A stretch of 44,517 bases of DNA. Source: Bacteroidales bacterium (GTDB lineage Bacteria; Bacteroidota; Bacteroidia; Bacteroidales; VadinHA17). The stretch lies in the NCBI GenBank assembly GCA_025454755.1, contig JALONV010000012.1:1-44517 (forward strand), given 5' to 3'. A program made the position numbers and the translations under genes. A model generated the notes under the pieces. That model was not told the DNA's origin. It did no database searches and saw only the letters and a list, made by a program, of their open reading frames with translations. Positions 9,725-41,581 of the stretch are shown here, piece after piece; within the stretch, counting starts at the first letter, position 1, and the number at the start of each line of letters is the position of its first letter.

Positions 9725-9884
9725 TTAACCGCAAAGTACGCAAAGCTCCGTCCCAAAAAAATGGGACGGAGATAGGAACGCCAAGAGCGCAAAGATGATT
9801 CTGATAAAGATATTTCTTTGCGCCCTTTGCGTCTTTTCCTGCCTCAGCATTAGGTGAGTCAGGCTTAGCGGCCTTTGCGGTTAA
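9725..9884. repeat. AACCGCAAAG scaffold repeat with variable palindromes (copy A)
   Basis: The perfect 12-bp terminal inverted repeats are TTAACCGCAAAG (9725-9736) and CTTTGCGGTTAA (9873-9884). At offset 21 lies a perfect hairpin (9746-9771) of CTCCGTCCCA, six A, TGGGACGGAG. Near the right end a second slot holds CCTGCCTCA (9838-9846) pairing with TGAGTCAGG (9855-9863) with one mismatch. Repeated GCAAAG and CTTTGCG words fill the arms. Copy B is at 41456-41581. The element lies directly downstream of pnp. Confidence 0.9.
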
Positions 9885-9905
9885 ATTTTATTTTTCTGGT
9901 CACCT

Positions 9906-9936
9906 TTTGATATTCTTGTTTCAATCTTTAAATTTG
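9906..9936 (+). promoter_or_regulatory. Consensus promoter for the deoxynucleoside kinase gene
   Basis: TTTG (9906-9909), exactly 19 nt, then TAAATTTG (9929-9936) is a perfect Bacteroidota promoter match. The start codon at 9963 lies about 20 nt after the expected transcription start. Confidence 0.7.
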
Positions 9937-9962
9937 ATCTTGAATATATTCTTAGGAAAAGA

Positions 9963-10604
9963 ATGAAGATCAAATACAATTATGTGGTTATTGAGGGCAA
10001 TATAGGTGCAGGCAAGACCACCCTGGCAACAAAAATATCGGAGCAGTTCAATGCGCGTCTCATCCTTGAGCATTTTGCCGACAACCCTTTTCTTCCGAAA
10101 TTCTATAGCGATCCCGGTAAATACTCTTTTCCTCTTGAGTTATCCTTTCTTGCCAGCCGCTACAAGCAGTTGAAGGAGGAGCTGGTACCACAGGATCTGT
10201 TCAGAGCCTTCACCGTTGCAGACTATTATTTCATGAAATCGCTGGTTTTTGCGGCGTCAACGCTTGAGGGCGATGAATATAGTCTCTACAGGCAGATATT
10301 TTATATTATTTATGGTTCGCTTCCGAAGCCGGATATATTTGTATATCTGCATCTTAGTCCAGAAAGGTTGCTTAATAACATAGAAATGAGAGGCAGGAAT
10401 TATGAAAAATCGATAACAAAAGAATATCTGCAAAAGATACAGGAAAGCTATTTTGCCTTCTTCAAACAGAATCCCGACAACAAATATCTGGTAATAGATA
10501 TCGAAAATGTAGACTTTGTGGCCAATGAAAGCCAATACAGGAAAGTTGTCGATGCGATCTTTTATGATGAGTATCCGGCCGGCATGAATACGCTGATTTT
10601 ATAA
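9963..10604 (+). CDS. Deoxynucleoside kinase (deoxyadenosine/deoxyguanosine kinase family)
   Basis: This enzyme would phosphorylate salvaged deoxynucleosides to dNMPs with ATP. The 213 residues show a P-loop GNIGAGKT (12-19) directly after the first beta strand. A VADYYF segment stands where the family carries its DRS-like motif, and RGRNYE (about 140-145) matches the lid region that binds phosphate. A FADNPFLPKFYSD segment after the P-loop is typical of the bacterial dAK/dGK branch. Substrate preference cannot be read from sequence alone. It has its own perfect promoter, so it is probably a single-gene transcript. Confidence 0.9.
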   Translation: MKIKYNYVVIEGNIGAGKTTLATKISEQFNARLILEHFADNPFLPKFYSDPGKYSFPLELSFLASRYKQLKEELVPQDLFRAFTVADYYFMKSLVFAASTLEGDEYSLYRQIFYIIYGSLPKPDIFVYLHLSPERLLNNIEMRGRNYEKSITKEYLQKIQESYFAFFKQNPDNKYLVIDIENVDFVANESQYRKVVDAIFYDEYPAGMNTLIL

Positions 10605-10643
10605 ATATTTTGTGTAATTTAGCTGTTTCTCGTTCAATTTTTT

Positions 10644-10651
10644 TAGATTTG
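10644..10651 (+). promoter_or_regulatory. Promoter -7 element for the OmpA/TPR lipoprotein gene
   Basis: TAGATTTG matches TAnnTTTG and lies 57 nt before the ATG at 10708. No convincing TTTG occurs at the usual 19-21 nt upstream. Confidence 0.4.
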
Positions 10652-10707
10652 CATATAATTAGTAACTTGTATTAACTAAAGATCGTAAACAAATAACTCT
10701 TTTTACT

Positions 10708-12417
10708 ATGAAAAAAATCAGAAGCTATTTTATCCTTATCCTGGCCGCAGTTCTTATGACCGGCTGTAGTGGTCTGAATAAAATGAAGAAAAATGCAGGC
10801 CTGATAAAGTATGAAGTCACCCCACAGGTGCTTCAGACAGATGCAGGCGTTGTTCCTGTTGCTATTAAGGGTGTCTTTCCTGCAAAATATTTTGACAAGA
10901 AGACTACCGTTACAGCTACCCCAGTACTTACTTATGACGGAGGTGAAACCCCTTATGATGCTGTTGTGCTTCAGGGTGAAAGTGTTCAGGCAAATAATAC
11001 CTCGATCAGTTACAACGGCGATAATTTCAGTTATTCCGGAACTGTTCCATACAAGGATGCAATGAAAGTTTCAAAGCTTGTTCTGAAAGCAAAAGCCGTA
11101 AGAGGCTCCAAGAGCCTTGATTTTGATCCGGTTCCGCTTGCTGATGGAGTAATTGCAACTTCTACTCTTGTCATGAAACATGGCAAAACCATTACAATGA
11201 AGGATAATTTCGTAAGAATAGTTCCTGAGAATAAGATGGCCGACATCAACTATGTGATCAACAAGTTTGATATCCGCCCGACAGAACTTAAGGCTGAAGA
11301 TGTTATCGCTATCAAGGATTATATCAAGGCTGTTTCTGCCGATCCAAACTACCAACTAAAATCTGCAGCTATCAGCTCTTATGCTTCTCCCGACGGAAAA
11401 TTTGACCTGAACGAAAAACTATCAGGCAACAGGGGCACTTCCGCTGATAAATTCATCAAGAAGGAATTCGAAAAGATAGAAGCTGCAAAAGCCGAGGGTT
11501 TCTTCAATGCAACAACAACAGCAGAAGACTGGGATGGTTTTAAAACTGAAGTTGAAAACTCAAATATCCAGGACAAAGACCTGATCCTTCGTGTTCTCTC
11601 AATGTACGCCGATCCTGAAGTGCGCGAAAAAGAGATCAAGAACATGGCAGCAGCTTTTGAATCGCTGAAAACCGACATCCTTCCGAAACTAAGAAGGTCA
11701 AAGATGATCATCAATGTTGATAAAATCGGACGCAGCGATGAGCAGATCCTTGCACAGGCCAAATCAGACCCTAAGGTTCTCAGCCTGGAGGAAATGCTTT
11801 ATGCAGCCACTCTTACTACCGATAATAATGAAAAACTTGCATTCTACACAGCTGCTCTCGAAGCTTATCCAAAATGCATACGTGCTGCAAATAACATAGG
11901 TGTTGCCCTTATTTCTCTCGGCAAAGCTGATGACGCGATAACCGCTCTGGTAAACGCACAGGCTATCAACAACAACGACGTTGTAAAGAATAACCTTGCA
12001 GCAGCTTATATGGCAAAAGGCGACCTGGTAAAAGCAGGTGAGATATATAAGTCAATGGCAACAGCTTCAACGGAATCAAAATTCGGTCTTGGCGTCATAG
12101 CTATTACGGAAGGCAAATATGATGATGCAGTTAATTTCCTTGGTACAGACCCTTGCTTCAACCTTGCTCTTGCACAGCTCTGCAAAGGCGATGTCAATAA
12201 GGCAAAAGTTACTCTCGATGCAATGAAAGAAAATTGCAAAGGAAGGGCTCCTTATCTGAAAGCAGTTGTTGGCGCACGTCTCGACGACAGAGATTATATG
12301 CTCAATGGACTCCGTGAATCTGCAGGTATCGATGCTGCATGGAAAGCTTATGCAAAAACTGATCTCGAATTAGCTAAATACTGGAACGACGACACATTCA
12401 AGTCGGCTGTTCAGTAA
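10708..12417 (+). CDS. Outer-membrane-type lipoprotein with OmpA-like and TPR regions
   Basis: The 569-residue precursor starts with a lipoprotein signal MKKIRSYFILILAAVLMTGC. The lipobox LMTGC puts the lipidated Cys at residue 20. Residues about 25-165 form a beta-rich region. Around residues 170-270 there is an OmpA-like segment with VINKFDIRPTELKAEDVIAIKDYI and SSYASPDGKFDLNEKLSGNRG, the peptidoglycan-binding pattern though diverged and interrupted. The C-terminal third (about 350-500) contains TPR-type helices such as AANNIGVALISLGKADDAITAL and NNLAAAYMAKGDLVKAGEIY. A periplasmic scaffold role linking outer membrane and cell wall is a reasonable inference. It appears monocistronic and converges on the trmH-type gene at a shared terminator. 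Confidence 0.82.
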   Translation: MKKIRSYFILILAAVLMTGCSGLNKMKKNAGLIKYEVTPQVLQTDAGVVPVAIKGVFPAKYFDKKTTVTATPVLTYDGGETPYDAVVLQGESVQANNTSISYNGDNFSYSGTVPYKDAMKVSKLVLKAKAVRGSKSLDFDPVPLADGVIATSTLVMKHGKTITMKDNFVRIVPENKMADINYVINKFDIRPTELKAEDVIAIKDYIKAVSADPNYQLKSAAISSYASPDGKFDLNEKLSGNRGTSADKFIKKEFEKIEAAKAEGFFNATTTAEDWDGFKTEVENSNIQDKDLILRVLSMYADPEVREKEIKNMAAAFESLKTDILPKLRRSKMIINVDKIGRSDEQILAQAKSDPKVLSLEEMLYAATLTTDNNEKLAFYTAALEAYPKCIRAANNIGVALISLGKADDAITALVNAQAINNNDVVKNNLAAAYMAKGDLVKAGEIYKSMATASTESKFGLGVIAITEGKYDDAVNFLGTDPCFNLALAQLCKGDVNKAKVTLDAMKENCKGRAPYLKAVVGARLDDRDYMLNGLRESAGIDAAWKAYAKTDLELAKYWNDDTFKSAVQ

Positions 12418-12434
12418 TAATCGATAGAAGTATA

Positions 12435-12983
12435 TTAAAAAGAGACTGCCGGGAGGTGGTCTCTTTTTTTATTCATCTCCCACAACACTATCCCCGCGCT
12501 TACTGCAATGTTGAATGAATGTTTGGTGCCGAACTGTGGAATCTCGACCACGTAATCGCATTCGTTTATAATCGCCTGATCGACACCGTTAACCTCATGT
12601 CCGAAGACCAGTGCATACTTTTTTCCGGGTTCGGATATAAAATCGCCGAGGCTTATTGATCCTTCAGCCTGTTCTATCCCGATGATCTTATATCCCCGTG
12701 ATTTCAGCTCTTTTATGGCTTCGGCAGTATGACTGAAATATTTCCATTCCACCGATTCCGTGGCTCCCAGGGCAGTTTTCTGTATCTCGCGGTGAGGAGG
12801 ACGGGCAGTTATGCCGCAGAGATAAATGCTCTCCGTTAGAAAAGCATCGGCAGTACGAAATACAGATCCTACATTGCTGTGGCTCCTGATATTGTCAAGA
12901 ACAATGATGAAAGGCGATTTTTCCGATTCCCTGAACTGGCTGACGCTTTTCCTTCCGAGTTCCCTGTTTTGAAGCTTGCGCAT
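12435..12983 (-). CDS. TrmH/SpoU family RNA 2'-O-methyltransferase
   Basis: The 182-residue protein is a minimal SPOUT methyltransferase that transfers methyl from AdoMet to a ribose 2'-OH in tRNA or rRNA. All three SpoU motifs are present: NIRSHSNVGSVFRTADAF (about residues 31-48) with the catalytic Arg, ALVFGHEVNGVD (about 123-134), and VEIPQFGTKHSFNIAVSAGIVLWE at the C-terminus, which forms the knotted AdoMet site. It lacks the N-terminal substrate-binding extension of RlmB, so the target RNA is unknown. Its last codons (RDH...VSF) coincide with the hairpin that also terminates the convergent lipoprotein transcript. Confidence 0.92.
   Translation of the reverse strand: MRKLQNRELGRKSVSQFRESEKSPFIIVLDNIRSHSNVGSVFRTADAFLTESIYLCGITARPPHREIQKTALGATESVEWKYFSHTAEAIKELKSRGYKIIGIEQAEGSISLGDFISEPGKKYALVFGHEVNGVDQAIINECDYVVEIPQFGTKHSFNIAVSAGIVLWEMNKKRDHLPAVSF
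12437..12470. terminator. Bidirectional terminator overlapping the 3' end of the trmH-type gene
   Basis: AAAAAGAGAC (12437-12446) pairs with GTCTCTTTTT (12459-12468) around a 12-nt loop. T runs in both orientations serve the lipoprotein gene on the plus strand and the methyltransferase gene on the minus strand. On the minus strand the hairpin is itself coding sequence and ends at the stop codon (12437-12435). Confidence 0.82.
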
Positions 12984-13085
12984 TCTTTTTTGTCACGAAA
13001 ATAGATAAAAAATCTTTTTAATATTGTATTTTGGAAACAGTGATACTTTGATAAAGCATAAACTCCTCTTTAAAAACTCAGGTAT

Positions 13086-14279
13086 ATGAATATTCACGAA
13101 TTCCAGGGGAAATCGATACTGAAAGCATACGATGTCGATATCCAGGAAGGTTTTGTAGCTGAAACTCCCGATCAGGCAATGATGGTAGCCGGCCAGCTCA
13201 GGGAAAAGACCGGCACGCAGTTTTTTGTTGTAAAAGCCCAGATACATGCCGGAGGCAGGGGCAAGGGAGGTGGTGTGAAAGTTGCAAAATCAATCGAAGA
13301 AGCAGGAGAACTGGCTTCAAAAATGATCGGCATGCAGCTCATCACTCCACAGACCGGACCTGCAGGCAAAAAAGTGAAAAGGGTGCTTATTGCCCAGGAC
13401 GTATATTATAAAGGAAATTCAGATATTAAAGAATACTATATCAGCATTTTGTTGAACAGGAATGTAAGTCGATACACAATAATGTATTCATCCGAAGGCG
13501 GCATGTCAATCGAGGAGGTGGCTGAGAAAACTCCGGAAAGGATATTCACTGAAGAAATTGATCCCGGTATTGGCCTTCAGGCGTTTCAATGCCGCAACAT
13601 AGCATTTAACCTTGGCCTGTCAGGCGATGCATTTAAGAATATGCAGAAATTCCTTGCAGGCATATATGAAGCATTCACAGGATGTGATGCCCAGCTTCTT
13701 GAGATAAATCCTGTTCTCAGGACCAGCGATAACAAGATACTTGCCGTCGATTCGAAAGTGGTGCTCGACGACAATGCTCTTTTCAGACATCCTGACCTTG
13801 CTGAGATGCGCGACCTTAACGAAGAAGATCCTGTTGAGGTGGAGGCAGGCAAAAGCAACCTCAATTTTGTTAAGCTCGACGGAAATGTAGGTTGTATGGT
13901 AAATGGAGCCGGCCTTGCCATGGCCACAATGGACATTATCAAGCTGTCGGGCGGCTCTCCTGCAAATTTCCTTGATGTGGGTGGCGGCGCCAATGCAAAA
14001 ACAGTGGAAGCAGGCTTCAGGATAATCCTCAAGGACCCTGCAGTCAAAGCAATACTTATAAATATTTTCGGAGGCATAGTACGATGCGATCGCGTTGCCA
14101 ACGGCGTCGTGGAAGCATATAAAACAATCGGAAAGATCAATGTCCCGGTCATCGTAAGGCTCCAGGGAACAAACGCCGAAGAGGCAAAAGCAATAATCGA
14201 CAATTCAGGTCTGAAAGTATATTCCGCGTCCACATTCCAGGATGCTGCAGATAAAGTGAAGGAGGTGATAGGTGGCTAG
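13086..14279 (+). CDS. sucC: Succinyl-CoA synthetase (ADP-forming) beta subunit
   Basis: This TCA-cycle subunit carries the ATP-grasp nucleotide site and works as a heteromer with SucD. The 397-residue protein begins MNIHEFQGKSILKAYDV and contains KAQIHAGGRGKGGGVKVAKS, LEINPVLR and the C-terminal CoA-ligase segment NFLDVGGGANAKTV and NIFGGIVRCDRVANGVV. The metal- and nucleotide-binding signatures are intact. No sucD follows: the next gene, overlapping by 8 nt, is a DUF5715 protein. Separate sucC and sucD loci are known in Bacteroidota, so the partner is expected elsewhere in the genome. Confidence 0.95.
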   Translation: MNIHEFQGKSILKAYDVDIQEGFVAETPDQAMMVAGQLREKTGTQFFVVKAQIHAGGRGKGGGVKVAKSIEEAGELASKMIGMQLITPQTGPAGKKVKRVLIAQDVYYKGNSDIKEYYISILLNRNVSRYTIMYSSEGGMSIEEVAEKTPERIFTEEIDPGIGLQAFQCRNIAFNLGLSGDAFKNMQKFLAGIYEAFTGCDAQLLEINPVLRTSDNKILAVDSKVVLDDNALFRHPDLAEMRDLNEEDPVEVEAGKSNLNFVKLDGNVGCMVNGAGLAMATMDIIKLSGGSPANFLDVGGGANAKTVEAGFRIILKDPAVKAILINIFGGIVRCDRVANGVVEAYKTIGKINVPVIVRLQGTNAEEAKAIIDNSGLKVYSASTFQDAADKVKEVIGG

Positions 14280-14982
14280 GAGGATAAAGGTAAAACCTCT
14301 GGGATGGACACTCCTGTCAGTAATCTCTGTTCTTGTTGCTTTTATTATTGTCTCCGCTGCCAGCCCTAAAGACAAAAATGAGGGCTTCCGTTATTTTATC
14401 ACAAAAACTTTTGGCCGGGAATGCATCTCATACAGGCAACCGATCTACAGCAGAAAGCTCAGGGATATGCTTCCCGATTACATCGCAAGGTCAAGCGCTG
14501 CCGGCATCAAGAAATGCGCCAATAAAGGAGAACTATTAAAAATGGCTGTAAGGGGAGAGGTCAGGCGGGTCAGGGACGGAAGAGGATATGAAATAGAAGA
14601 TCTTTCGTACAGCTATCCTTATCTTACAAAGGATGGCAAAGCTCTTCTGAAAGAGATCGGCAGACGATTCAGAAAAAAGATCTCAGGAACAAAACTGCGC
14701 GGATCCGATTTCAGGATCACATCAATGACGAGGACTGAAGAGATAACCAGGAAGCTCAGGAGCGCAAACTCAAATGCATCGGATAATTCGCCTCATTATC
14801 ATGGTAATGCATTCGATATCAGCTATGTAAGGTTCTCGGCAGATAAATGGTTTGTGACAGATTGTGATAAATATTATCTGAAAGAGGCGTTAGCCGAAGT
14901 AATATGGAAGCTGAGAGAGGAGAAAAAGTGCTGGGCCACCTATGAGATCAACCAGGGTTGTTTTCACGTTGTAGCCAGGTAG
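14272..14982 (+). CDS. DUF5715 family, M15/VanY-like peptidase-fold membrane-anchored protein
   Basis: The frame starts with GTG at 14272, inside the last codons of sucC, preceded by GGAGGTGATA as a good Shine-Dalgarno sequence. This suggests translational coupling. The 236 residues include one N-terminal membrane segment (about 12-32, LLSVISVLVAFIIVSAAS), so the rest would face the periplasm. SPHYHGNAFDISYV (173-186) has the S-x-H-x2-G-x-A-x-D zinc-binding pattern of M15 D,D-carboxypeptidases (His175, Asp182), and CFHVV (His232) supplies the third ligand. Peptidoglycan cleavage is inferred. The family has no firmly assigned role that I know of. Confidence 0.82.
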   Translation: MARRIKVKPLGWTLLSVISVLVAFIIVSAASPKDKNEGFRYFITKTFGRECISYRQPIYSRKLRDMLPDYIARSSAAGIKKCANKGELLKMAVRGEVRRVRDGRGYEIEDLSYSYPYLTKDGKALLKEIGRRFRKKISGTKLRGSDFRITSMTRTEEITRKLRSANSNASDNSPHYHGNAFDISYVRFSADKWFVTDCDKYYLKEALAEVIWKLREEKKCWATYEINQGCFHVVAR

Positions 14983-14994
14983 GAAAAGTATACA

Positions 14995-15504
14995 TTAACC
15001 TGAAAAACCTATCTTTCTGTGTCTGCCGTCGCAATACGGCTTTTTATCGCTGGCACCGCAGCGGCATATCGATATCATCCCATCTTTTATCTCTTTACCA
15101 GCTCCGCCCTGTACCAGGGTGAAAGTACCTGAAATAACCAGCGGCCCATTTGGCATAACTTTTACAGTAACCAGTTTCTCTTTTACAGTCAGCCTGTCAT
15201 CTTCCATAAGTTCCGGTCGTCTGAATTTTATATGATTTGACTGATCGCTTCCGACCTCCCTGTTCTTTTCCTCATCATTCCATTTCCATGCAAGAGCTTC
15301 TGTAGGACACAGATTCACCACTTCTATGATCCTGTCAGTGGTGGATCCTTTCATATCGACCCAGGGTCTGCGGCTGGGATCAAAAACCTCTATGAGCTCC
15401 CTGTAACAATATGATGCGTGGACACAGGCCGACGGTTTCCAGTAAACGGATATCTCCCCGTTAGTATATTTCCTTTCATCCGTAAGCGATTTGTCTCTTT
15501 CCAT
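14995..15504 (-). CDS. Fe-S protein: mono-cluster ferredoxin-like (Fer4_19) plus CDGSH domain
   Basis: The 169-residue cytoplasmic protein has two parts. Residues about 18-75 (YWKPSACVHASYC, VNLCPTEAL; Cys27, Cys33, Cys66) match the divergent 4Fe-4S domain Fer4_19. Residues 147-162 read CRCGASDKKPYCDGRH, the C-x-C-x2-S-x3-P-x-C-D-G-x-H motif of 2Fe-2S CDGSH (mitoNEET-like) domains, with Arg at the usual Ser/Thr position. Ligands are Cys147, Cys149, Cys158 and His162. This fusion is a recurring bacterial architecture. An electron-transfer or redox-sensing role is inferred. It is convergent with the DUF5715 gene, with 12 nt between the ends. Confidence 0.9.
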   Translation of the reverse strand: MERDKSLTDERKYTNGEISVYWKPSACVHASYCYRELIEVFDPSRRPWVDMKGSTTDRIIEVVNLCPTEALAWKWNDEEKNREVGSDQSNHIKFRRPELMEDDRLTVKEKLVTVKVMPNGPLVISGTFTLVQGGAGKEIKDGMISICRCGASDKKPYCDGRHRKIGFSG

Positions 15505-15587
15505 TCCTGACCTGCACTAAATAGTTAATTGCTTGCAATTTAACAATTTTTGTGATTTATATCAGATATAGTGATATGTCGAATACA

Positions 15588-15595
15588 TATATTTG
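15588..15595 (+). promoter_or_regulatory. Promoter -7 element for the hybrid histidine kinase gene
   Basis: TATATTTG matches TAnnTTTG exactly. Transcription would begin near 15602, which rules out the upstream in-frame start at 15571 and supports a start at 15661 or 15682. No clear -33 TTTG is visible. Confidence 0.45.
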
Positions 15596-15660
15596 CACCT
15601 TTATTTTTTATAATTGAACCGGGGAAATTTATTAATTTTCATTGTTTTAGGATAGGAAAA

Positions 15661-17538: not shown

Positions 17539-17579
17539 GATTCCTTTTTTCTTATTACATTGCATGTAACTTCCATTAC

Positions 17580-19868: not shown

Positions 19869-19896
19869 ACGGTGCAGAGATACAACCGTGGTTATA

Positions 19897-19929
19897 AAAG
19901 AGGGGGAGAGGGCGAGAGGGGGGGAGAAG
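19897..19929 (+). repeat. Purine-only G-rich tract after priA
   Basis: It consists of GAGGGGGAGAGGGCGAGAGG-like units interrupted by a single C, beginning 29 nt after the priA stop. It belongs to the same low-complexity class as 6906-6948, 30791-30826 and 31265-31392. Confidence 0.65.
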
Positions 19930-19975
19930 TTACGTATTTAAAAATCCCGTGGGATGGGTTGCCTTAAAAAGTTAC

Positions 19976-19983: not shown

Positions 19984-20001
19984 ACTATTTAAATAACTTC
20001 T

Positions 20002-20373: not shown

Positions 20374-20374
20374 G

Positions 20375-23940: not shown

Positions 23941-23968
23941 GTCCGTCTTCGCCAAGGCTTCGGCGGAC
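23941..23968 (+). repeat. Hairpin repeat with conserved CTTCGCC-AGGCTTCGG loop (copy A)
   Basis: GTCCG (23941-23945) pairs with CGGAC (23964-23968) around a 17-nt loop. Copy B at 33626-33653 has a near-identical loop but a different, still pairing stem. It sits between the presumed tRNA promoter and the mature tRNA, so it would be in the 5' leader. Confidence 0.7.
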
Positions 23969-23972: not shown

Positions 23973-24048
23973 CGGGGTGTGGCGCAGTTGGTAGCGTACT
24001 ACGTTCGGGACGTAGGGGCCGGAAGTTCGAGTCTTCTCACCCCGACCA
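23973..24048 (+). tRNA. tRNA-Pro (anticodon CGG)
   Basis: All arms fold. The acceptor stem is CGGGGTG (23973-23979) with CACCCCG (24038-24044), discriminator A, and encoded CCA at 24046-24048. The D arm is GCGCAGTTGGTAGCGT. The anticodon stem is CTACG/CGTAG with loop TTCGGGA, giving anticodon CGG at 24006-24008. The T arm is GGAAG-TTCGAGT-CTTCT. It reads the proline codon CCG. Confidence 0.95.
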
Positions 24049-31264: not shown

Positions 31265-31392
31265 TTTTCCTTAACTCATCCTCTCGCCCTCCCGCCCTCC
31301 CCCACTCTCGCCCTCACCCCACTCTCGCCCTCACCCCCTCTCGCCCTCTCGCCCTCCCCCCTCTCGCCCTCACCCCCTCTCGCCCTCACCTT
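31265..31392 (-). repeat. Long purine-rich G tract at the 3' end of the ABC transporter gene
   Basis: About 125 nt on the minus strand are almost purely A and G with single C or T, in units such as GAGGGCGAGAGGGGGTGAGG. The ABC transporter stop codon TGA (31388-31386) is the first TGA of the array. Several four-G runs could form quadruplexes. Confidence 0.82.
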
Positions 31393-33149: not shown

Positions 33150-33156
33150 CTGCCTG

Positions 33157-33603: not shown

Positions 33604-33625
33604 ATTCTTAGTGTTATTGGTTACT

Positions 33626-33653
33626 GGCCACCTTCGCCGAGGCTTCGGTGGCT
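33626..33653 (+). repeat. Hairpin repeat with conserved CTTCGCC-AGGCTTCGG loop (copy B)
   Basis: GGCCA (33626-33630) pairs with TGGCT (33649-33653), including one G-T pair, around a 17-nt loop differing at one base from copy A at 23941-23968. It lies in the gap upstream of yqeY, surrounded by TTGCTGGTT words like those at 43713-43755. Confidence 0.7.
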
Positions 33654-33690
33654 AAAAGTTGCTAGTTGCTGGTTCAGGCAGGTTGCTTCT

Positions 33691-34548
33691 TTATTTTCTT
33701 TCAACAGGTTCAACATGAATGGTAACATTAAGATTCTCGAATGAAGTCATCAGCTGATCCTCAATCTGGTCGCAGTATCGATGAGCATTTCCGACTGATT
33801 CATCCTCTGATATCTCCACGTGAATGTCAATAAACCGGTAATTGCCTGCCTTACGTGTGCGCAGGCTATGATAATTAACTCCCATTTCGTTCAGCTTCTT
33901 CTCGAGCTCGTTGACTTCATCAATAGCCCATGATGAGTCAAGCAAAGGCCAGAAGGCCCGCCTGAGAAGCTCATATGATTCCTTTATTATGAAAAGGGCG
34001 ACCAGAATAGCTACAACAGGATCGAGCCATTTTATGTCAGTAAGAAGGATCAGCACCAGGCCGACAGCAACGCCTGCGGAAGTATAAACATCGGTTTTCA
34101 GGTGAAGCGCATCAGCTTCCAGGGCAACTGATTTAGTCTCACGGGCGACTTGATATAATCTTCTGGATACAAAAATATTGACAATTGCCGAGATTGCCAT
34201 TACCACAGAACCTATCCAGAGTTTTTCAAGTACGATCTCTTCGCCAAGGAGCTTTTTAATGGCCTCGACAATGATCATGGCTGCTGCCGCAAATATCAGT
34301 ATTGCCTCAACCACACCCGAGATATTTTCAACTTTGCCATGTCCGTACGGGTGTTTTGAATCAGGTGGATTGTCCGAGACCTTAACCGAAAAAAAGGCAA
34401 TAATTGCAGCAACCAGATCCATCGAAGAATGTATTGCTTCAGAAATAATACTTACGGATCCGCTGAGAATGCCTACAACAACTTTCATAATTATCAGCAG
34501 AGTGTTTGATATTATGGAAAGGCTTGCCGTTTTTACTTTAACATTCAT
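33691..34548 (-). CDS. Cation diffusion facilitator family transporter
   Basis: The 285-residue protein has six membrane helices and a cytoplasmic C-terminal ferredoxin-like domain (about 205-285). Metal-site motifs are HSSMD (His40, Asp44) in the second helix and HLKTD in the fifth, preceded by the family signature HPYGHGKVE in the loop. It would export a divalent cation such as Zn, Fe or Mn using the proton gradient. The HxxxD/HxxxD pattern does not settle which metal. It stands between yqeY and the DUF362 gene on the same strand. Confidence 0.93.
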   Translation of the reverse strand: MNVKVKTASLSIISNTLLIIMKVVVGILSGSVSIISEAIHSSMDLVAAIIAFFSVKVSDNPPDSKHPYGHGKVENISGVVEAILIFAAAAMIIVEAIKKLLGEEIVLEKLWIGSVVMAISAIVNIFVSRRLYQVARETKSVALEADALHLKTDVYTSAGVAVGLVLILLTDIKWLDPVVAILVALFIIKESYELLRRAFWPLLDSSWAIDEVNELEKKLNEMGVNYHSLRTRKAGNYRFIDIHVEISEDESVGNAHRYCDQIEDQLMTSFENLNVTIHVEPVERK

Positions 34549-34608
34549 CTTTTTCGGGAAAAGGTCTCCAAAGATAAGGAGAAATGCAGGGAAACTAAAA
34601 AATATATA

Positions 34609-35727
34609 TCACACAATCACCATATCGTAGGCAAGATGGCCAAGACCTATTTTTTCGGCATGCTTCAGTCCGGACTGCCAGAATGTGTCAGGATGTGCAA
34701 GCTTGAATTTATCTTTTCCTTTAAGATGGTCATTCTTTTGATCGTCACATATCGTGCTTCCCGGCAATGCAGGAGCCGCCATTACAAGGTCTGCGCTGGC
34801 CTGGTCGAGGGCAACCGGATCAAACGATGCCGCTATACCAATATCGGGAACGATCGGATAATCATTCAGATCCCAGCAGTCGCAGTTTGGCGATACGTTC
34901 ATTATGAAATTTATATGAAATGATGGCTTGTCCAAAACAACAGCATATGCATATTCCGAGATTCTCATGCAGGCCGATTCCGATGACGCCGACCATACCA
35001 CTCTCGATGCATCATACTGGCAAACTGCTACACATTGTCCGCAGCCTACACATTTTTCATAGCTGATATGCGCTATCTTATCCTTTCCAACTTTAATAGC
35101 GTCATGAGCGCAATATTTTTCACATACCCGGCATCCCGTGCAGTTTTTCTCATTAATTTTTGGTGATGACCCGGAATGCAGAAAAAGTTTCCCACCAACA
35201 GATGCGCATCCCATTCCAAGATTCTTAAGCGCGCCCCCGAAACCCGTAAGCTCATGTCCCTTAAAATGATTCAGGGTAATTATCACGTCGGCATCGGCAA
35301 TGGCAGACCCTATTTTTGCGACCTTGCATTGTTCGAGATTGACTTCTATATCACGGAATTCAGTTCCTTTTATACCGTCGGCAATAATTACCGGACAGTC
35401 AGTTGCAAGAGGATTATATCCATTCTCAAAAGCAGCTTCAAGATGTGAAGGAGCATTTGATCTTCTTCCAAAATAGAGTGTATTGCAGTCTGTCAGGAAG
35501 GGAACGGCTCCCTTTGACTTAAGGAACTTAACCATCCTGGCGGCATAATTAGGCCTCAGATATGCCATGTTGCCCGGTTCACCGAAATGGATCTTCAGGG
35601 CTGTCAGCTTTCTGTCGAAATCAATCTTTTCAATTCCTGCTTTTACTGCCAGATGTTCAAGTTTTTTCAGAAGGTTCTGCGGAGGTTTGACTCTCAGATC
35701 GGTAAAATATACCTGTGAAGTTTGCAT
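34609..35727 (-). CDS. DUF362 protein with two 4Fe-4S ferredoxin clusters
   Basis: The 372-residue protein has a DUF362 domain surrounding a ferredoxin insert. NHFKGHELTGFGGALKNLGMG (about 154-174) is the DUF362 signature. The two cluster-binding motifs are CTGCRVCEKYC (about 196-206) and CVGCGQCVAVC (about 226-236). No signal peptide is visible. Related proteins occur widely in anaerobes. Their reaction is unknown, though an electron-transfer function is likely. It is 18 nt downstream of ispH, an enzyme that itself needs reducing equivalents from a ferredoxin-type donor. A functional link is a guess from proximity. Confidence 0.9.
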   Translation of the reverse strand: MQTSQVYFTDLRVKPPQNLLKKLEHLAVKAGIEKIDFDRKLTALKIHFGEPGNMAYLRPNYAARMVKFLKSKGAVPFLTDCNTLYFGRRSNAPSHLEAAFENGYNPLATDCPVIIADGIKGTEFRDIEVNLEQCKVAKIGSAIADADVIITLNHFKGHELTGFGGALKNLGMGCASVGGKLFLHSGSSPKINEKNCTGCRVCEKYCAHDAIKVGKDKIAHISYEKCVGCGQCVAVCQYDASRVVWSASSESACMRISEYAYAVVLDKPSFHINFIMNVSPNCDCWDLNDYPIVPDIGIAASFDPVALDQASADLVMAAPALPGSTICDDQKNDHLKGKDKFKLAHPDTFWQSGLKHAEKIGLGHLAYDMVIV

Positions 35728-35745
35728 GGATTTTCTTTTATTTCA

Positions 35746-36621
35746 TCAGAAATCTCTGATTATATCACGGATCTTTTCTATCAGCCATTTTGGTGTGGAA
35801 GTTGCTCCGCATACTCCAACGGTACTCTTTCCTTCAAACCAGGCTTTATCAATTTCGTTTGTTGATGATACAAAATATGTTGAAGGATTGACACTTTTAC
35901 ATACTGCATAAAGCATCTTCCCGTTGGAGCTCTCCCTGCCGCTGACGAAGATTATAACGTCGTGTTGTTTCGCAAACAGTTTAAGATGAGGTTCCCTGTT
36001 CGATACCTGGCCGCAAATGGTATGGAACACTTTCAGGAGTTTTTCAGGATCAGCGGAACTGCTTTCACGTATCCTTTTACGTATTAAATCTGCAATATCA
36101 TCATAATCATTCACGCTCATTGTGGTTTGTGAAAAAAGGCATACCGGTTTTGTCATATCTATTTTCTTAAGGTCATCCGGTCCGGCTACCAGTATCCCTT
36201 CGCCTCCGGTTTGTCCAAGCAGGCCGACGACCTCTGCATGACCCGGTTTTCCGAAGATAACGATCTGTCCTTTACACTTATGTGAAGAGGTGTTTGCTTC
36301 CCTGATCCTGGACTGAAGCTTCTTAACGATAGGGCAGGTTGCTTCAATGATGGTTATGTTGTTTTCCTCAGCAGTGCGGTATGTTTCAGGAGGTTCCCCA
36401 TGAGCCCTTATCAGCACCTTGCAGTTTTTAAGGTTCCTGAATTCTTCGTGAGAGATGGTTATGAGTCCAAGAGAGATTAGACGTTCCATCTCCATGTCAT
36501 TATGCACTATAGGACCCAGTGAATATACTTTTTCGCCCTTGTATAGGGCCTCTTCGGCTATTTCAACTGCATTTTGAACTCCGAAGCAGAATCCTGATTG
36601 CCCGTCAATCTCAACTACCAT
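35746..36621 (-). CDS. ispH: 4-hydroxy-3-methylbut-2-enyl diphosphate reductase
   Basis: IspH catalyses the last step of the MEP isoprenoid pathway, making IPP and DMAPP with an oxygen-sensitive 4Fe-4S cluster. The 291 residues carry all three cluster cysteines: Cys12 in GFCFGVQNA, the cysteine in EATCPIVKK, and the one in TICGQVSNRE. The substrate-contact segments RAHGEPPE, FGKPGHAEVVG and SSTNEIDK are present. The C-terminal VGVCGATSTPKWLIE matches the family. Its start overlaps the end of cmk by 11 nt. Confidence 0.96.
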   Translation of the reverse strand: MVVEIDGQSGFCFGVQNAVEIAEEALYKGEKVYSLGPIVHNDMEMERLISLGLITISHEEFRNLKNCKVLIRAHGEPPETYRTAEENNITIIEATCPIVKKLQSRIREANTSSHKCKGQIVIFGKPGHAEVVGLLGQTGGEGILVAGPDDLKKIDMTKPVCLFSQTTMSVNDYDDIADLIRKRIRESSSADPEKLLKVFHTICGQVSNREPHLKLFAKQHDVIIFVSGRESSNGKMLYAVCKSVNPSTYFVSSTNEIDKAWFEGKSTVGVCGATSTPKWLIEKIRDIIRDF

Positions 36622-37306
36622 TGATCTTCTTTTCGATGATATTCATCACCCATGTCATCTGTTCTGCCACTGTCATTCTTGTATTGTCAAGGACAAGCGC
36701 ATCATCAGCCCTTCGCAGAGGACTTATGTCCCTGTTCTCGTCGGTAATGTCACGTGCAACAATATTACGCCGTATCTCTTCAAAATCAATCTCAACTCCC
36801 TTGTTTTTCAACTCATCGTATCTTCTCTTTGCACGGATTTCAACAGATGCTGTCATAAAGATCTTAAGTTCTGCATCCGGAAAAACAACGGTTCCGATAT
36901 CCCTGCCATCCATCACTATTCCCTTGAACATGCCTATCTGTCTCTGAAGCTCCATCATCCTGGTGCGGACTTCAGATATCTGGCTTATTCTGCTGACATG
37001 TCTGGAAACTTCAATTCCCCTTATTTCTTTTTCGACATTCTCCGAATTCAGAAATGTCTCATATTCAGCAATATCCGGATTATAAACAAATTCTATATTA
37101 ATATCCTTCAGCTCGTTCACAATACTCTGCAGGTCCAGTTTGTCGTTGTCCACAAGTCCGTGTCTCATGCAGTAAAGTGTAACTGTGCGATACATTGCTC
37201 CACTGTCGATATAGAGGTAGTTAAGTTCTTTGGCTATGGTTTTGGCAAAGGTGCTCTTCCCGCAGGATGAGTAGCCGTCGATGGCAATTATGAGTTTCTT
37301 TTTCAT
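36611..37306 (-). CDS. cmk: Cytidylate kinase
   Basis: This enzyme phosphorylates CMP and dCMP with ATP. The 231-residue protein begins MKKKLIIAIDGYSSCGKSTFAK, with the P-loop at residues 11-19. The NMP-binding segment IDSGAMYRTVTLY and the LID region MDGRDIGTVVFPDAELKIFMTASVEIRAKRRY are intact, as is DNTRMT near the C-terminus. It overlaps ispH and lies downstream of porQ. I recall porQ-cmk-ispH as a conserved order in Porphyromonas and relatives. Confidence 0.96.
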   Translation of the reverse strand: MKKKLIIAIDGYSSCGKSTFAKTIAKELNYLYIDSGAMYRTVTLYCMRHGLVDNDKLDLQSIVNELKDINIEFVYNPDIAEYETFLNSENVEKEIRGIEVSRHVSRISQISEVRTRMMELQRQIGMFKGIVMDGRDIGTVVFPDAELKIFMTASVEIRAKRRYDELKNKGVEIDFEEIRRNIVARDITDENRDISPLRRADDALVLDNTRMTVAEQMTWVMNIIEKKINGS

Positions 37307-37314
37307 AGACTTCT

Positions 37315-37431
37315 AACCCCCCAGCCATAAGCATGTCTGCTTATGGCTGGCCCCCTAAAGGGGGCTTAAAACCCAAATCTGATTCAAGATTTGTACTGGT
37401 TTTAGCCCCCCTATCAGGGGGGTTGGGGGGT
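37315..37431. repeat. CCCCCT/AGGGGG scaffold repeat carrying palindromes (copy 2)
   Basis: AACCCCC is followed by a perfect 13-bp-stem palindrome (37321-37333 with 37338-37350, half-site CCAGCCATAAGCA, loop TGTC). Then come CCCCCTAAAGGGGG (37351-37364), CTTAAAACCC, a second palindrome CAAATCT-GATTCA-AGATTTG, GGTTTTAGCCCCC and GGGGGGTTGGGGGGT. The scaffold is shared with 2009-2135 but the palindromes are unrelated in sequence. It lies between porQ and cmk. Confidence 0.85.
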
Positions 37432-37471
37432 CTGTACAAAGATGGGAATAAGACCTGAAATTTCAAAACTC

Positions 37472-38506
37472 CTATTTCCGGAACCGGTTATAGAGAAGAT
37501 CAGGCCGTACGATCAGCGAAATATGATTCGATGCTCCTGCCAGGTGATAGGTGGCTCGTCCGAATTCGATATTGATAAATGAAGTGTTGATCCCGAATCC
37601 CCAGGAAAAACCTACCCCGGCAGTCCTGGTTTCCAGTTTCAGTTCGCTTCTTCTCTGGTAATTGTATCCTGCGCTTATATAGAAATTCTTGTGCGGAAGT
37701 ATCTCAACTCCGAAAACAGCATGTCTCATCAGGTTCTCCAGGAATTCTGATGACTGGAAATAATCTGTTGCTGTAGCTGTGGTGTCGTTATACTCGTAGG
37801 TTAGATCATATTTTTCAAGATGCCTGAGAGTGAGGGAGAACCTGAATGGAGCATGGGCAAGTTTCCCGGATACTCCGGCCTGTATTTCAAAAGGAAGGTC
37901 CTGCCTCTTTTCGCCTGCATAAGTTGTCAACTCAAGGCCTATATTCTTCAGCACAACTCCGGCAGAAAAAAGTCCCGATCTGCTGTGGTATCCTGCTCCG
38001 ATATCGGCGGCAAAACCGAACGAGGTATATTTTTCAAGATGGGACAGCACAGGTTTAACATTGATTCCGATACTGAAAAGAGTGTCTATAACCCTCGACC
38101 AGATAAGGGACATTGCGTATTCCGAAGCGCTGAAAGATCCTGTAATTATGCCAGATGCATCTGCTTCGGTGAACGAACCATAATTAAGGTATGTAATCCC
38201 GGCAGCGAAATTTCCTATTCCCCGGTATGTCTTTGAATAATGAACCTGGCCATAATTAACTCCGGCAAAGTAATCGACATAGCTCAGTGCGAAACTGTTG
38301 TTCATTGATGAATCCAGCAGGGCAGGATTATGATATGAGAGATTTAAATTGCCGGTATTGAGCGACACATTGGTCCCTCCGAGCGAAGATACAAGTCCGG
38401 AATGTGTAAGGTTCAGGAATTCATAAACATTATCGCCTCCGGTCTGTGCCTGAGATACTGAAACCAGGAGACTTAGTATTAATATATGAATGCTTTTCCT
38501 GCCCAT
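37472..38506 (-). CDS. porQ: Type IX secretion system protein PorQ
   Basis: I start at the second ATG, 38506 (MGRKSIHILILSLLVSVSQAQ, a signal peptide), because a promoter -7 element lies just upstream. The 344-residue precursor is an outer-membrane beta-barrel-type protein. Repeated GxN and amphipathic strands such as HSGLVSSLGGTNVSLNTGNLNLSYHNPALLDSSMNNSFALSYVDYFAGVNYGQVHYSKTY match PorQ, a component of T9SS cargo processing and attachment in Bacteroidota. It supports a T9SS-encoding genome. Downstream are cmk and ispH, after a repeat element. Confidence 0.9.
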   Translation of the reverse strand: MGRKSIHILILSLLVSVSQAQTGGDNVYEFLNLTHSGLVSSLGGTNVSLNTGNLNLSYHNPALLDSSMNNSFALSYVDYFAGVNYGQVHYSKTYRGIGNFAAGITYLNYGSFTEADASGIITGSFSASEYAMSLIWSRVIDTLFSIGINVKPVLSHLEKYTSFGFAADIGAGYHSRSGLFSAGVVLKNIGLELTTYAGEKRQDLPFEIQAGVSGKLAHAPFRFSLTLRHLEKYDLTYEYNDTTATATDYFQSSEFLENLMRHAVFGVEILPHKNFYISAGYNYQRRSELKLETRTAGVGFSWGFGINTSFINIEFGRATYHLAGASNHISLIVRPDLLYNRFRK

Positions 38507-38521
38507 AATAACAATGGTAGT

Positions 38522-38529
38522 CAAATATA
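38522..38529 (-). promoter_or_regulatory. Promoter -7 element for porQ
   Basis: On the minus strand TATATTTG matches TAnnTTTG, 15 nt before the ATG at 38506. It lies inside the longer possible frame starting at 38533, arguing against that start. No clear -33 element is visible. Confidence 0.45.
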
Positions 38530-38571
38530 ACACGATTTATTTAAACGGTCCATCACCGTAAATTAGTATTA

Positions 38572-39495
38572 TCAGGCTGTCTTGCCTGTGAGTGTCAGGG
38601 CCTCGTCAGTCTTTTCCCTGTGTCCGTTTATCTGTGACATGAAGAGTCCGGCGATCACAATGGCCATCCCCAGGAGATTCTGAAGAGAGAGCTTTTCATC
38701 AAGCAGGATGAAAGAGAATAGGGCAGTGAATATAGGGATGCAGTTTGAAAAAATGTTTGCCTTCGTGATCCCCATATTTTTTACTGAGAAGGCAAAAAGA
38801 ATGAATGCCCCGCAGGAAGCAAACAGAGCCAGCTCGACTATTGGAATGAAATGTCTTATATCGAAAGGAGTTGTGCTGAGAGGCTCGACTTCGAAGATGA
38901 GAAAGAGCGGCAGAAAGAGAATTACGCCAATGACATTCTGGACATTCACAATGAATACCGGCCCGTATGAACCGACCAGACGGCTGAGGGTGAGATTGTA
39001 ACCTACGGCTGAAAATACCGCAAGGATCATCAGCATAAGGCCTTTAACATTAAATGAGAGAGATCCATCCCTGTTTATTATGAAGACAAGAACTCCCACG
39101 AACGACAGGATTATTCCTGCATAATTTATGAGCTTCAGCCTCTCTTTGAAAATGATCCATGCCCCCAGTGTTGCAATTACAGGAATGGTTGATATAAGAA
39201 CCGATCCGACAGTGGCTGATACGTATGTGAGGCCAAAGCTCTCGCCAAGGAAATAAAAAAAAGGCTCCAGCACGGCCAGAAGGACAAAGAGCTTTATGTC
39301 TTTCTTCTTAATCTTCACAAAATTCTTTGTAACAGAGAGATAGGCAGAAAGTAATGCTGCTGATATTACGAGCCTGATAAAAACGATTGTTATCGGACGG
39401 TAGACCTCATTGGCCATCTTGAACCAGATGAAAGATACTGACCAGAATATCATTGCCAGGATCACTGCACCGTATGTACCGAGGACTTTTTTCAA
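38572..39495 (-). CDS. DMT-family (EamA) transporter
   Basis: The 307-residue protein has ten predicted membrane helices in two EamA halves: VILAMIFWSVSFIWFKMAN opens the first, and LMILAVFSAVGYNLTLSRLVG opens the second. Conserved features are the SATVGSVLISTIPVIATLGAWIIFKE block of the first half and FSNCIPIFTALFSFILLDEKLS of the second. Such carriers export amino acids, nucleotides or other metabolites. The substrate cannot be predicted. It diverges from the etf operon and probably has its promoter in the 218-nt intergenic region. Confidence 0.92.
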   Translation of the reverse strand: MKKVLGTYGAVILAMIFWSVSFIWFKMANEVYRPITIVFIRLVISAALLSAYLSVTKNFVKIKKKDIKLFVLLAVLEPFFYFLGESFGLTYVSATVGSVLISTIPVIATLGAWIIFKERLKLINYAGIILSFVGVLVFIINRDGSLSFNVKGLMLMILAVFSAVGYNLTLSRLVGSYGPVFIVNVQNVIGVILFLPLFLIFEVEPLSTTPFDIRHFIPIVELALFASCGAFILFAFSVKNMGITKANIFSNCIPIFTALFSFILLDEKLSLQNLLGMAIVIAGLFMSQINGHREKTDEALTLTGKTA

Positions 39496-39640
39496 GCGGC
39501 TAATTAATTAAGGCGCGAATTTAGGATTTATTTCGACTAATAATAGCGATGAAGTTGAAGTATTTTCATAAACATCAGGTATACAATAGTATAACCTTAT
39601 TAATTCTTTCGAACACTATTGAAAAATGACAGAATTTACA

Positions 39641-39671
39641 TTTGATGATGAATCATAAATTATTATATTTG
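39641..39671 (+). promoter_or_regulatory. Consensus promoter for the etf operon
   Basis: TTTG (39641-39644), exactly 19 nt, then TATATTTG (39664-39671) is a perfect match to the Bacteroidota promoter. The etfB ATG lies 43 nt further on. Confidence 0.72.
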
Positions 39672-39713
39672 CCGCCTCTGGGAAAGAAAAATATAACTCT
39701 AAAACAGATTTGA

Positions 39714-40463
39714 ATGAAAATTCTGGTATGCATAAGCAATGTTCCCGACACAACGACAAAAATAAAGATCGCTGAAGGGAATGCTTCGATAGACACTGCA
39801 GGCATTCAATGGGTTATCAACCCCTGGGATGAACTTTCATTGACCCGTGCCCTGGAACTCAGGGACGATCAGTCGACAGGCATTAAATCAGTCACTGTGG
39901 CACATGTGGGGCCGGCAATATCAGAGCCAACCATCCGCAAGGCCCTGGCAATTGGTGCTGATGATGCAATCCGTGTAAATGCAGAATCTGCAGACGCTTA
40001 TTTTGTGGCAGAGCAGCTTGCCGAAGCGATAAAGAAGGAGCAGTTCGATATAATAATGTGCGGCATCGAGTCAAGCGACTATAATGGTTCAGTAGTAGGA
40101 GGAATGGTTGCAGAGTTTCTCGGGATACCTTCGGTGTCTGCAGCATCTGCGATAAACTTTGAAGGCGGGGTTCCGGTCATAACACGTGATATAGACGGCG
40201 GGAAGGAAATTATTAATGTCCCTGTCCCCTTCGTTGCCATTGTTCAGAAAGGTATAGCAAAAGAACCTCGCATCGCTGCAATGAGAGGCATCATGATGGC
40301 GAGGACAAAACCCATAAAAACATTAGAACCGGTTGCAATTGAGCCACTTACACAGATCGTGTCTTTTGAAAAGCCTGCTCCGCGCTCAGCCTGCAAATTT
40401 GTCGATGCTGCCAACCCGGGCCAGCTTATCGACCTCCTGAGGAATGAAGCAAAAGTCATCTGA
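39714..40463 (+). CDS. etfB: Electron transfer flavoprotein beta subunit
   Basis: EtfB pairs with EtfA to carry electrons from acyl-CoA dehydrogenases. The 249-residue protein starts MKILVCISNVPDTTTKIKI and has WVINPWDELSLTRALELRDD, DDAIRVNAESADAYFVAEQLAEAIK and CGIESSDYNGSVVGGMVAEFLGIPSVSAAS, the AMP-binding region of the family. It is the first gene of a plus-strand operon with its own perfect promoter. etfA follows after 23 nt. Confidence 0.94.
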   Translation: MKILVCISNVPDTTTKIKIAEGNASIDTAGIQWVINPWDELSLTRALELRDDQSTGIKSVTVAHVGPAISEPTIRKALAIGADDAIRVNAESADAYFVAEQLAEAIKKEQFDIIMCGIESSDYNGSVVGGMVAEFLGIPSVSAASAINFEGGVPVITRDIDGGKEIINVPVPFVAIVQKGIAKEPRIAAMRGIMMARTKPIKTLEPVAIEPLTQIVSFEKPAPRSACKFVDAANPGQLIDLLRNEAKVI

Positions 40464-40486
40464 TAAATAAAATTAACTTAACCAAT

Positions 40487-41455
40487 ATGTCAGTATTAGT
40501 ATATACCGAAAACTGGGACGGAAAATTCAAGAAACTCTCCTTTGAACTTGTATCTTATGCATCTGCCGTTGCAAAAATGCTGAATACATCAGTGACGGCT
40601 CTTTCGATAGGTAATGTCGGTGACGATGAACTGAAGAAGCTTGGTAATTATGGAGCGCAGAAGATACTGAGCGCTCATAATGATCAGCTTGCAGTGCTTG
40701 ATAACCAGGCATACACCAGTGTCATTGCAGAGATTGCAGGAAAAGAGAATGCTTCCGTGGTAATCATTTCTAACAACAATACAGGGAAAGCCCTGGCTCC
40801 GAGATTATCTGTAAGACTTAAGGCCGGTGTAGGATCCGGCGTCAGCAAACTGCCATTGAGCACTGATCCGTTCACGGTTTACAAGAGAGCCTATTCGGGG
40901 AATGCCTTTGCACATGTGGTGATAAAGTCCGGTATAAAGATCCTGACTCTTGCCCAGAACTCCTTCGACCTGCTTGAAACTCCAAATAATGCAGTGCTTG
41001 AAAAAGCTGAGGTTAAGGTGGATGCCTCTTTTATCAAAACTAAGGTGAAAGATGTGAATAAGCAGACAGGAAAAATACTGCTTACCGATGCCGATATTGT
41101 TGTTTCAGGAGGCAGGGGAATGAAATCTCCTGACAACTGGGGACCGCTTGTTGAACTGGCCGATGCGCTTGGCGCAGCAACAGCATGTTCGCGTCCTGTT
41201 TCGGATGAAGGATGGCGGACACATGAGGAGCATACCGGCCAGACAGGAAAAATAATTGCACCTAACCTGTATATCGCGGTGGGTATTTCCGGAGCCACAC
41301 AGCATCTTGCAGGTGTAAGCTCATCGAAATATATTGTGGCAATAAACACCGATAAGGATGCACCGATCTTCGAAGCCGCACAATACGGAATCGTTGGCGA
41401 CGCAATGAAAATATTACCGCAGTTGGTTATGGCTTTAAAGGAAATAAAGAAATAA
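40487..41455 (+). CDS. etfA: Electron transfer flavoprotein alpha subunit
   Basis: The 322-residue protein has an N-terminal domain and a C-terminal FAD domain. The FAD signature is VVSGGRGMKSPDNWGPLVELADALGAATACSRPVSDEGW followed by HTGQTGKIIAPNLYIAVGISGATQHLAG and AINTDKDAPIFEAAQYGIVGD. No ferredoxin domain is fused, so this is the plain ETF type. It forms the dimer with EtfB and would hand electrons to the membrane Fe-S oxidoreductase encoded next. A structured repeat starts directly after its stop codon. Confidence 0.95.
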   Translation: MSVLVYTENWDGKFKKLSFELVSYASAVAKMLNTSVTALSIGNVGDDELKKLGNYGAQKILSAHNDQLAVLDNQAYTSVIAEIAGKENASVVIISNNNTGKALAPRLSVRLKAGVGSGVSKLPLSTDPFTVYKRAYSGNAFAHVVIKSGIKILTLAQNSFDLLETPNNAVLEKAEVKVDASFIKTKVKDVNKQTGKILLTDADIVVSGGRGMKSPDNWGPLVELADALGAATACSRPVSDEGWRTHEEHTGQTGKIIAPNLYIAVGISGATQHLAGVSSSKYIVAINTDKDAPIFEAAQYGIVGDAMKILPQLVMALKEIKK

Positions 41456-41581
41456 TTAACCGCAAAGAGCGCAAAGCTCTGTACCGGTAAATCGGTACAG
41501 AGTGAAGACGCAATAAACGCAAAGGAAAACAGAGCAATTCTTTGCGGCCTTTGCGTAAGATCTTAGCGTCCTTTGCGGTTA
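41456..41581. repeat. AACCGCAAAG scaffold repeat with variable palindromes (copy B)
   Basis: Terminal inverted repeats are TTAACCGCAAAG (41456-41467) and CTTTGCGGTTA (41571-41581). At offset 21 lies a perfect hairpin (41477-41502) of CTCTGTACCG, loop GTAAAT, CGGTACAGAG. The right-hand slot holds TAAGATCTTA (41556-41565). It sits between two genes of one operon, so it would be transcribed within the etf mRNA. Confidence 0.9.

Follow-up and report, generated by a model that had tools for sequence, protein, structure and literature searches.

Inverted heptamer arrays with variable hairpin slots in a Bacteroidales genome: probable gene-less derivatives of GxxExxY nuclease elements

Miniature inverted-repeat transposable elements (MITEs) have parent transposases of the DDE or HUH classes, and the small nucleases I-Bth0305I and I-Ssp6803I belong to introns. 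For the repetitive extragenic palindromes (REPs) and their REP-associated tyrosine transposases (RAYTs), which come with GTAG or CGTC tags, CGTC repeats have been reported in Bacteroidetes (PMC3733652). We analyzed two repeats, copies A and B, on 44,517 nucleotides of DNA from a Bacteroidales bacterium (positions 1-44,517 of contig JALONV010000012.1, assembly GCA_025454755.1, VadinHA17; hereafter, the window) and estimate a probability of roughly two in three that they are gene-less, MITE-like derivatives of elements carrying GxxExxY (TIGR04256/PF13366), a PD-(D/E)XK nuclease of about 125 amino acids. The reading rests on sequence comparison: a shared scaffold, a gene-bearing copy, an association of gene and repeats in several phyla, matching flavours at the two ends, a deletion series, a variable copy number and an element-free site.

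Like MITEs, the copies are short, gene-less, multicopy and intergenic with inverted ends, and they appear to be internal-deletion derivatives of a gene-bearing element. Unlike in MITEs, each end is built of an array of spaced heptamers in which hairpin slots are optional, no target duplication has been defined, and the parent gene would encode a PD-(D/E)XK nuclease instead of a DDE or HUH transposase. With the REP/RAYT system they share complementary stem changes between copies and the presence of free-standing copies (PMC3733652), but the scaffold is not a REP and shows no link to the Y1 genes. I-Bth0305I and I-Ssp6803I resemble GxxExxY in being small PD-(D/E)XK nucleases in mobile settings, with very weak Foldseek matches (E 0.15 and 0.64), but GxxExxY lies between inverted arrays and has derivatives that lack the gene. 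Cas4 and lambda exonuclease give the best, though weak, fold matches and share a QxxxY motif; their chains are 202-228 amino acids long compared with 125 and their genomic setting is different. Integron attC sites come in cassette arrays with an integrase; the copies described here are dispersed. Among the papers listed in literature searches, none concerned these boxes by its title or the opening of its abstract, with subscription journals mostly outside the coverage and an earlier description thus possible.

In the source genome (G000, 2.93 Mb; G-numbers denote genomes and L-numbers loci), an element consists of TTAAC, two boxes separated by two nucleotides, a first slot, a second such box pair, a short centre and then the mirror image of the whole. 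The box is a heptamer, CGCAAAG in the flavour of this genome and CRCNRAG as the family consensus. In agreement with the initial annotation, A and B share terminal inverted repeats, with the ends TTAACCGCAAAG...CTTTGCGGTTA(A) in both, and carry at offset 21 a hairpin with ten perfect base pairs and a loop of 6 nt (9746-9771 in A and 41477-41502 in B). Three stem positions, 4, 7 and 10, differ between the copies, each with a compensating change on the other arm. The palindromic second slot that had been described for both copies exists in A (9838-9863, 26 nt, one mismatch in nine) and not in B, where the proposed palindrome TAAGATCTTA takes four of its bases from the next box (CTTAGCG), so that B has one hairpin slot instead of two. 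The features of the two copies are the following:

9725..9884, no strand: copy A, entire gene-less element with four box pairs and two hairpin slots
9725..9745, plus strand: outer left end of copy A, TTAAC then two CGCAAAG boxes
9746..9771, plus strand: left slot of copy A, class I 26-nt hairpin with perfect 10-bp stem
9779..9794, plus strand: inner left box pair of copy A, CGCCAAG-AG-CGCAAAG
9795..9815, no strand: centre of copy A, the position occupied by the GxxExxY gene in gene-bearing elements
9816..9831, minus strand: inner right box pair of copy A, CTTTGCG-CC-CTTTGCG
9838..9863, minus strand: right slot of copy A, 26-nt hairpin with a single mismatch
9864..9884, minus strand: outer right end of copy A, CTTAGCG-GC-CTTTGCG-GTTAA
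41456..41581, no strand: copy B, entire gene-less element
41458..41476, plus strand: outer left end of copy B, AAC then box pair
41477..41502, plus strand: left slot of copy B, class I 26-nt hairpin with a G010 orthologue in locus L088
41509..41524, plus strand: inner left boxes of copy B, CGCAATA (decayed) then CGCAAAG
41540..41555, minus strand: inner right box pair of copy B
41556..41561, no strand: right slot of copy B, TAAGAT, short 6-nt form with no hairpin
41562..41581, minus strand: outer right end of copy B, CTTAGCG-TC-CTTTGCG-GTTA

The link to GxxExxY comes from copies in which the centre holds a gene. PF13366 has three matches in the source genome and is present in 32 of 60 relatives, and the source-genome gene at G000:C106:5290-5640 lies within a CGCAAAG scaffold (L052) with GTACTA in the left slot, a hairpin in the right slot and a single clear box remaining of the inner right pair. 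The gene-less copies, which have terminal inverted repeats and no coding capacity, thus share their ends with a gene-bearing element of the same genome. In G013, a GxxExxY gene stands between the same kind of box pairs (L229), and in G032 half-sites at C170:1990-2008 and 2521-2539 bracket a PF13366 gene at 2095-2445. At the B locus, G018 has an intact 131-amino-acid GxxExxY gene between related boxes, G019 retains 71 amino acids of it, and G005 keeps about the first 19 and last 11 codons between retained boxes; the three species form an internal-deletion series in which the gene is intact, partly deleted and almost gone. A CACAGAG-flavoured GxxExxY element lies beside or inside CGCAAAG boxes at L208 and L215. 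The protein of L052 is 80% identical to that of L229, both of CGCAAAG flavour, compared with 59% to that of the CACAGAG-flavoured L208. By eye, the same upstream gene end seems to precede GxxExxY in several species (L208, L213, L215, L229, L052 and L314), under differing box flavours, so that this site would be either old or a hotspot. In a separate observation at the B locus of G032 and G027 (L143 and L144), box ends located 3' of the gene surround a very different hairpin, GTAGAGACG...CGTCTCTAC.

The association extends beyond the order. We scanned named genomes and took the best 80 of 580 confirmed GxxExxY relatives, 76 of them with full flanks. At least two inward-facing CRCNRAG boxes within 300 nt on both sides were found at 51 of the 76 loci and at 1 of 128 neighbouring open reading frames (ORFs), the controls being mechanically called ORFs from the same loci, some of which may not be genes, and the box pattern having been generalised after viewing the flanks of relatives and named loci, so that the count is not blind. 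With one such side sufficing, the counts were 72/76 loci and 15/128 neighbours, and the mean numbers of inward boxes were 3.09 versus 0.23 upstream and 3.55 versus 0.45 downstream. Judged by record titles, which are the depositors' own and often refer to metagenome bins, the loci with boxes on both sides include Bacteroidota, Melioribacter, Planctomycetota, Treponema, Balneolaceae and three Cyanobacteria. GxxExxY matched seven plasmid records and no phage record.

The two ends of a locus also agree in flavour: their mean distance was 0.776, compared with 1.562 after shuffling (n = 53, none of 5000 shuffles as low), and the ends coincided at box position 2 in 57/58 loci and at position 5 in 51/57. 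On the best tree, which is poorly supported, flavour changed 10 and 12 times. Should the nuclease turn out to move the element, the paired change of both ends would be an instance of a conserved shape under a changing sequence.

All four proteins tested pass the TIGR04256 model (141.8-150.6 bits, cut-off 35). Residues E27, D67, E77, K79 and Q91 are kept in 17/17 proteins of the order and 80/80 proteins of the named genomes. The peptide patterns used for scanning include E27 and D67, so the conservation of these two is partly built in and to this extent counts against our reading. The putative catalytic residues fit the PD-(D/E)XK pattern of a catalytic D, an ExK and a preceding E. For the 125-residue query, the structure was predicted confidently (predicted local distance difference test score, pLDDT, 95.1), and the nearest solved folds were SSO0001, which we take to be a Cas4, and lambda exonuclease; these weak matches (E 0.005-0.009) point to PD-(D/E)XK nucleases. 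A sequence search of the PDB returned nothing convincing (best E 0.33) and PADLOC gave weak matches only. The searches made here found no function for GxxExxY, and the passages that mention it in the literature searched deal with neither repeats nor mobility.

By inference, GxxExxY most likely acts on the folded arrays, with gene-less copies carried along, and would drive the mobility of these elements. Under this model, the nuclease would recognise the arrays, probably in a folded or cruciform state adopted in single-stranded DNA (ssDNA) or supercoiled DNA, and its cutting would let the element be copied or home to new intergenic sites, with gene-less copies moved in trans. The slot hairpins would be secondary and REP-like, lying between the outer and inner box pairs and prolonging the junction-shaped fold, and their arms may change together through selection on the fold or through template-switch correction of imperfect palindromes. 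More tentatively, at somewhat below even odds, GxxExxY elements may form a new class of mobile DNA spanning phyla, in which one small PD-(D/E)XK nuclease identifies the inverted heptamer arrays from the shape into which they fold, the box flavours can drift provided that the two ends do so in step, and gene-less copies, with their variable hairpins, are carried along. The inverted arrays supply GxxExxY proteins, which are found in many genomes, with a genomic setting and a testable role, and the association explains one class of intergenic repeats. A nuclease that proved to move the element would lie outside the transposase and recombinase classes to which mobile-element enzymes usually belong.

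A number of observations weigh against a GxxExxY origin. No movement has been observed, a target-site duplication is not defined, and no solved fold matched the protein with E < 0.001. An Acidobacteria-titled locus (L287) has boxes upstream only, and outward-facing arrays occur on both sides of 13 of the 76 named loci (0/128 controls). A local-alignment test for inverted flanks was weak, given boxes that are degenerate: 11 of 77 loci exceeded the 99th percentile of mismatched pairs and 16 of 77 that of neighbouring ORFs. A tree test of coordinated flavour change had one to three supported independent pairs, a number too small to reach significance. Among the 21 order loci whose flanks were recovered, out of 30, about half have by eye inverted flanks of other or mixed sequence, for example L214, L230, L233 and L234. 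Across the genus, the number of half-sites does not track the PF13366 count (rho 0.26, p 0.12). Half-sites without any PF13366 match occur in seven genomes, including G012 with 67 half-sites in a 95%-complete assembly.

The abundance of boxes in genomes with no PF13366 match (67 half-sites in G012, 24 in G006, 19 in G024 and 11 in G026), together with a similarity of the protein to Cas4 models that is weak and below cut-off, would also be expected if GxxExxY were a passenger or defence cargo of arrays moved by another enzyme or by recombination. The recurrence of the gene-box association across several phyla, and the position of GxxExxY as the sole gene between the arrays in L052 and L229, argue against such a passenger role, which we consider rather unlikely.

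We compared orthologous sites in G010, the nearest relative with data (1.10 Mb sampled), in which both flanks were found for 10 of the 31 own elements tried. A CGCAAAG element is kept at three sites (L034, L038 and B), a CACAGAG-flavoured element occupies the same site at another three (A, L065 and L052), and four sites hold no box element (L039, L041, L058 and L066). The L041 site is cleanly element-free (compared with L380), with flanks 76 and 80% identical and the element boundary ambiguous. The sampled G010 sequence contains 11 CACAGAG clusters, and by an informal estimate three shared sites among seven look like more than random placement would give.

The initial annotation had counted two copies, which is far too low: we read 38 sites in the source genome, namely A, B and 36 further stretches, a figure that takes in half elements and contig-end pieces, some sites being incomplete, and leaves room for further sites, so that it should be read neither as the number of complete elements nor as a maximum. 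Allowing three mismatches, the box-pair pattern gave 58 forward and 64 reverse matches in this genome, compared with 1 and 4 for the reversed control. Over 36 genus genomes, half-sites range from 0 to 68, with at least one in 26. In G012, the outer box pair of L182 (G012:C286:3682-3792) is present as five tandem 23-nt repeats, the last with one mismatch, a small satellite made from an element end. At L151, L156 and L352 around 5343-5483, box arrays face outward like half elements joined back to back.

Of 28 source-genome copies entered in the analysis of genomic setting, 27 could be assigned: mechanically called ORFs flank 26 of them (18 tandem, 4 convergent and 4 divergent), and one lies inside an 81-amino-acid ORF that is probably no gene. 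As ssDNA, copies A and B fold much more stably than 200 dinucleotide shuffles (z -10.24 and -7.04, respectively), and the predicted folds consist of an outer stem with side arms. An intergenic position, mostly between tandem ORFs, and very stable folds would suit structures acting in RNA, such as two-way terminators or mRNA-stabilising hairpins kept by selection, and at the A locus a hairpin resembling a terminator is seen by eye at the corresponding position in several relatives. Against this explanation, which we regard as improbable, half-sites vary from none to 68 between congeners, the full form carries a gene, and at the gathering threshold Rfam has no match at six gene-less copies or at L052; in 60 kb searched at that threshold, the sole known RNA family was tRNA.

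The description of the slots as always self-complementary does not hold in general. Among 74 half-elements of the source genome, 10 lack an inner box and the slot measures 3-9 nt in 25, 13 nt in 5 and at least 14 nt in 34; a clear hairpin, often of 26 nt, occupies 17 of the 34 long slots (at most 5 of 100 mononucleotide shuffles as good). Hairpins are thus optional and many slots short. The relative G012 has 56 short slots among 61 half-elements, 3 of at least 14 nt, 1 of 13 nt and 1 half-element without an inner box. Long slots are found in 10 of 84 half-elements of the named GxxExxY loci, with no hairpin at p 0.05 among the 10, the figure for other genus and order loci being 3 of 10.

Where the hairpins exist, their arms covary. 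We assembled twenty hand-picked 26-nt hairpins (18 from the source genome, one each from G012 and G010), trimming one of 28 nt, widening one of 24 nt by a base per side and excluding other lengths. Pair 4-23 is Watson-Crick in 19 of the 20, with all four pair types, compared with 5.3 expected from shuffling. The shuffled values are likewise greatly exceeded at pairs 2-6, 10 and 11, less at pairs 7 and 8 (p about 0.015) and not at pairs 1 and 9, all significance being overstated by shuffling as the paralogues are related. The stem covariation noted from A and B is therefore real and strong among paralogous copies. Slots that are mostly non-palindromic had been named as the outcome that would speak against the proposal; the many short slots go part of the way, yet the paralogue covariation is still strong. 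The hairpins fall into two classes, the fully paired class I (left slots of A and B) and class II with a 3x3 internal loop.

The left and right hairpins of L034 have no stem change relative to G010, that of copy B has one compensated pair, two that are broken in G010 and a further one altered in a single arm, and that of L038 has four pairs broken in G010. The initial interpretation is thus partly supported: the arms covary among paralogues, but these four orthologous hairpins do not show steady selection on pairing. An alternative is that the covariation is mutational, with template switching perfecting imperfect palindromes in the absence of structural selection. Such change is documented at quasipalindromes (PMC7202029, PMC8604942), and orthologous stems also change without compensation. 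In L034, by contrast, the element is identical to that of G010 at 150 of 158 positions, with the stem unchanged, compared with 113/141 and 116/144 in the 150-nt flanks. We consider the mutational explanation possible, a little short of an even chance.

Compensated change is not confined to the slots. The class II core has 25 exact and 18 one-mismatch matches in the source genome (82 with up to two mismatches, compared with 26 for the reversed control), and 7 or 8 of the 43 sit in slots; as the hairpin also stands free, it is REP-like. Of the 37 class II hairpins that were readable, automated sorting placed 29 outside slots and 8 within them, an approximate split as L331, classed as slot, is free on inspection and L048, classed as free, lies within a longer slot. 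The outer stems of the 29 free hairpins vary with compensation, too, pairs 1-4 being Watson-Crick in 20-22 of them (null 8-12), which again suits template switching. Two free hairpins lie in the window:

33627..33652, plus strand: free class II REP-like hairpin, akin to hairpins in the slots of other copies
23942..23967, plus strand: free class II REP-like hairpin ending 5 nt upstream of the tRNA gene at 23973-24045

The membership of one slot-hairpin class in this free-standing family, and the presence of three Y1_Tnp genes in the source genome, raise the question of a REP/RAYT system in which a Y1 (IS200/IS605-type) transposase would mobilise the copies as REP-like repeats, a link that the initial annotation had proposed to look for. 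The three Y1 loci carry neither the scaffold nor the core of either hairpin class: within 600 nt there is one lone box at one gene, two lone boxes at another and none at the third, and no Y1 gene is thus flanked by the repeat. Six genus genomes have no Y1_Tnp match, some of them in assemblies only 77-87% complete, and half-sites number 11-14 in three of these (14 in G022, 11 in G026 and 13 in G035), 3 in one and none in two. In the genus genomes, the half-site number does not track the Y1 count (rho 0.30, p 0.08). By eye, C[AG]A[AT]G follows 17 of the 29 free class II hairpins and CGTC one, so the GTAG or CGTC tag expected beside the hairpins of RAYTs and their REP doublets (REPINs) is not the rule here. 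With the scaffold bracketing GxxExxY as well, the Y1 link to the scaffold is unsupported and a REP/RAYT origin of the copies improbable, though such an origin may apply to the hairpins alone. At L317, L322, L326 and L339, REP-like hairpins appear by eye to be nested within hairpins of the same kind.

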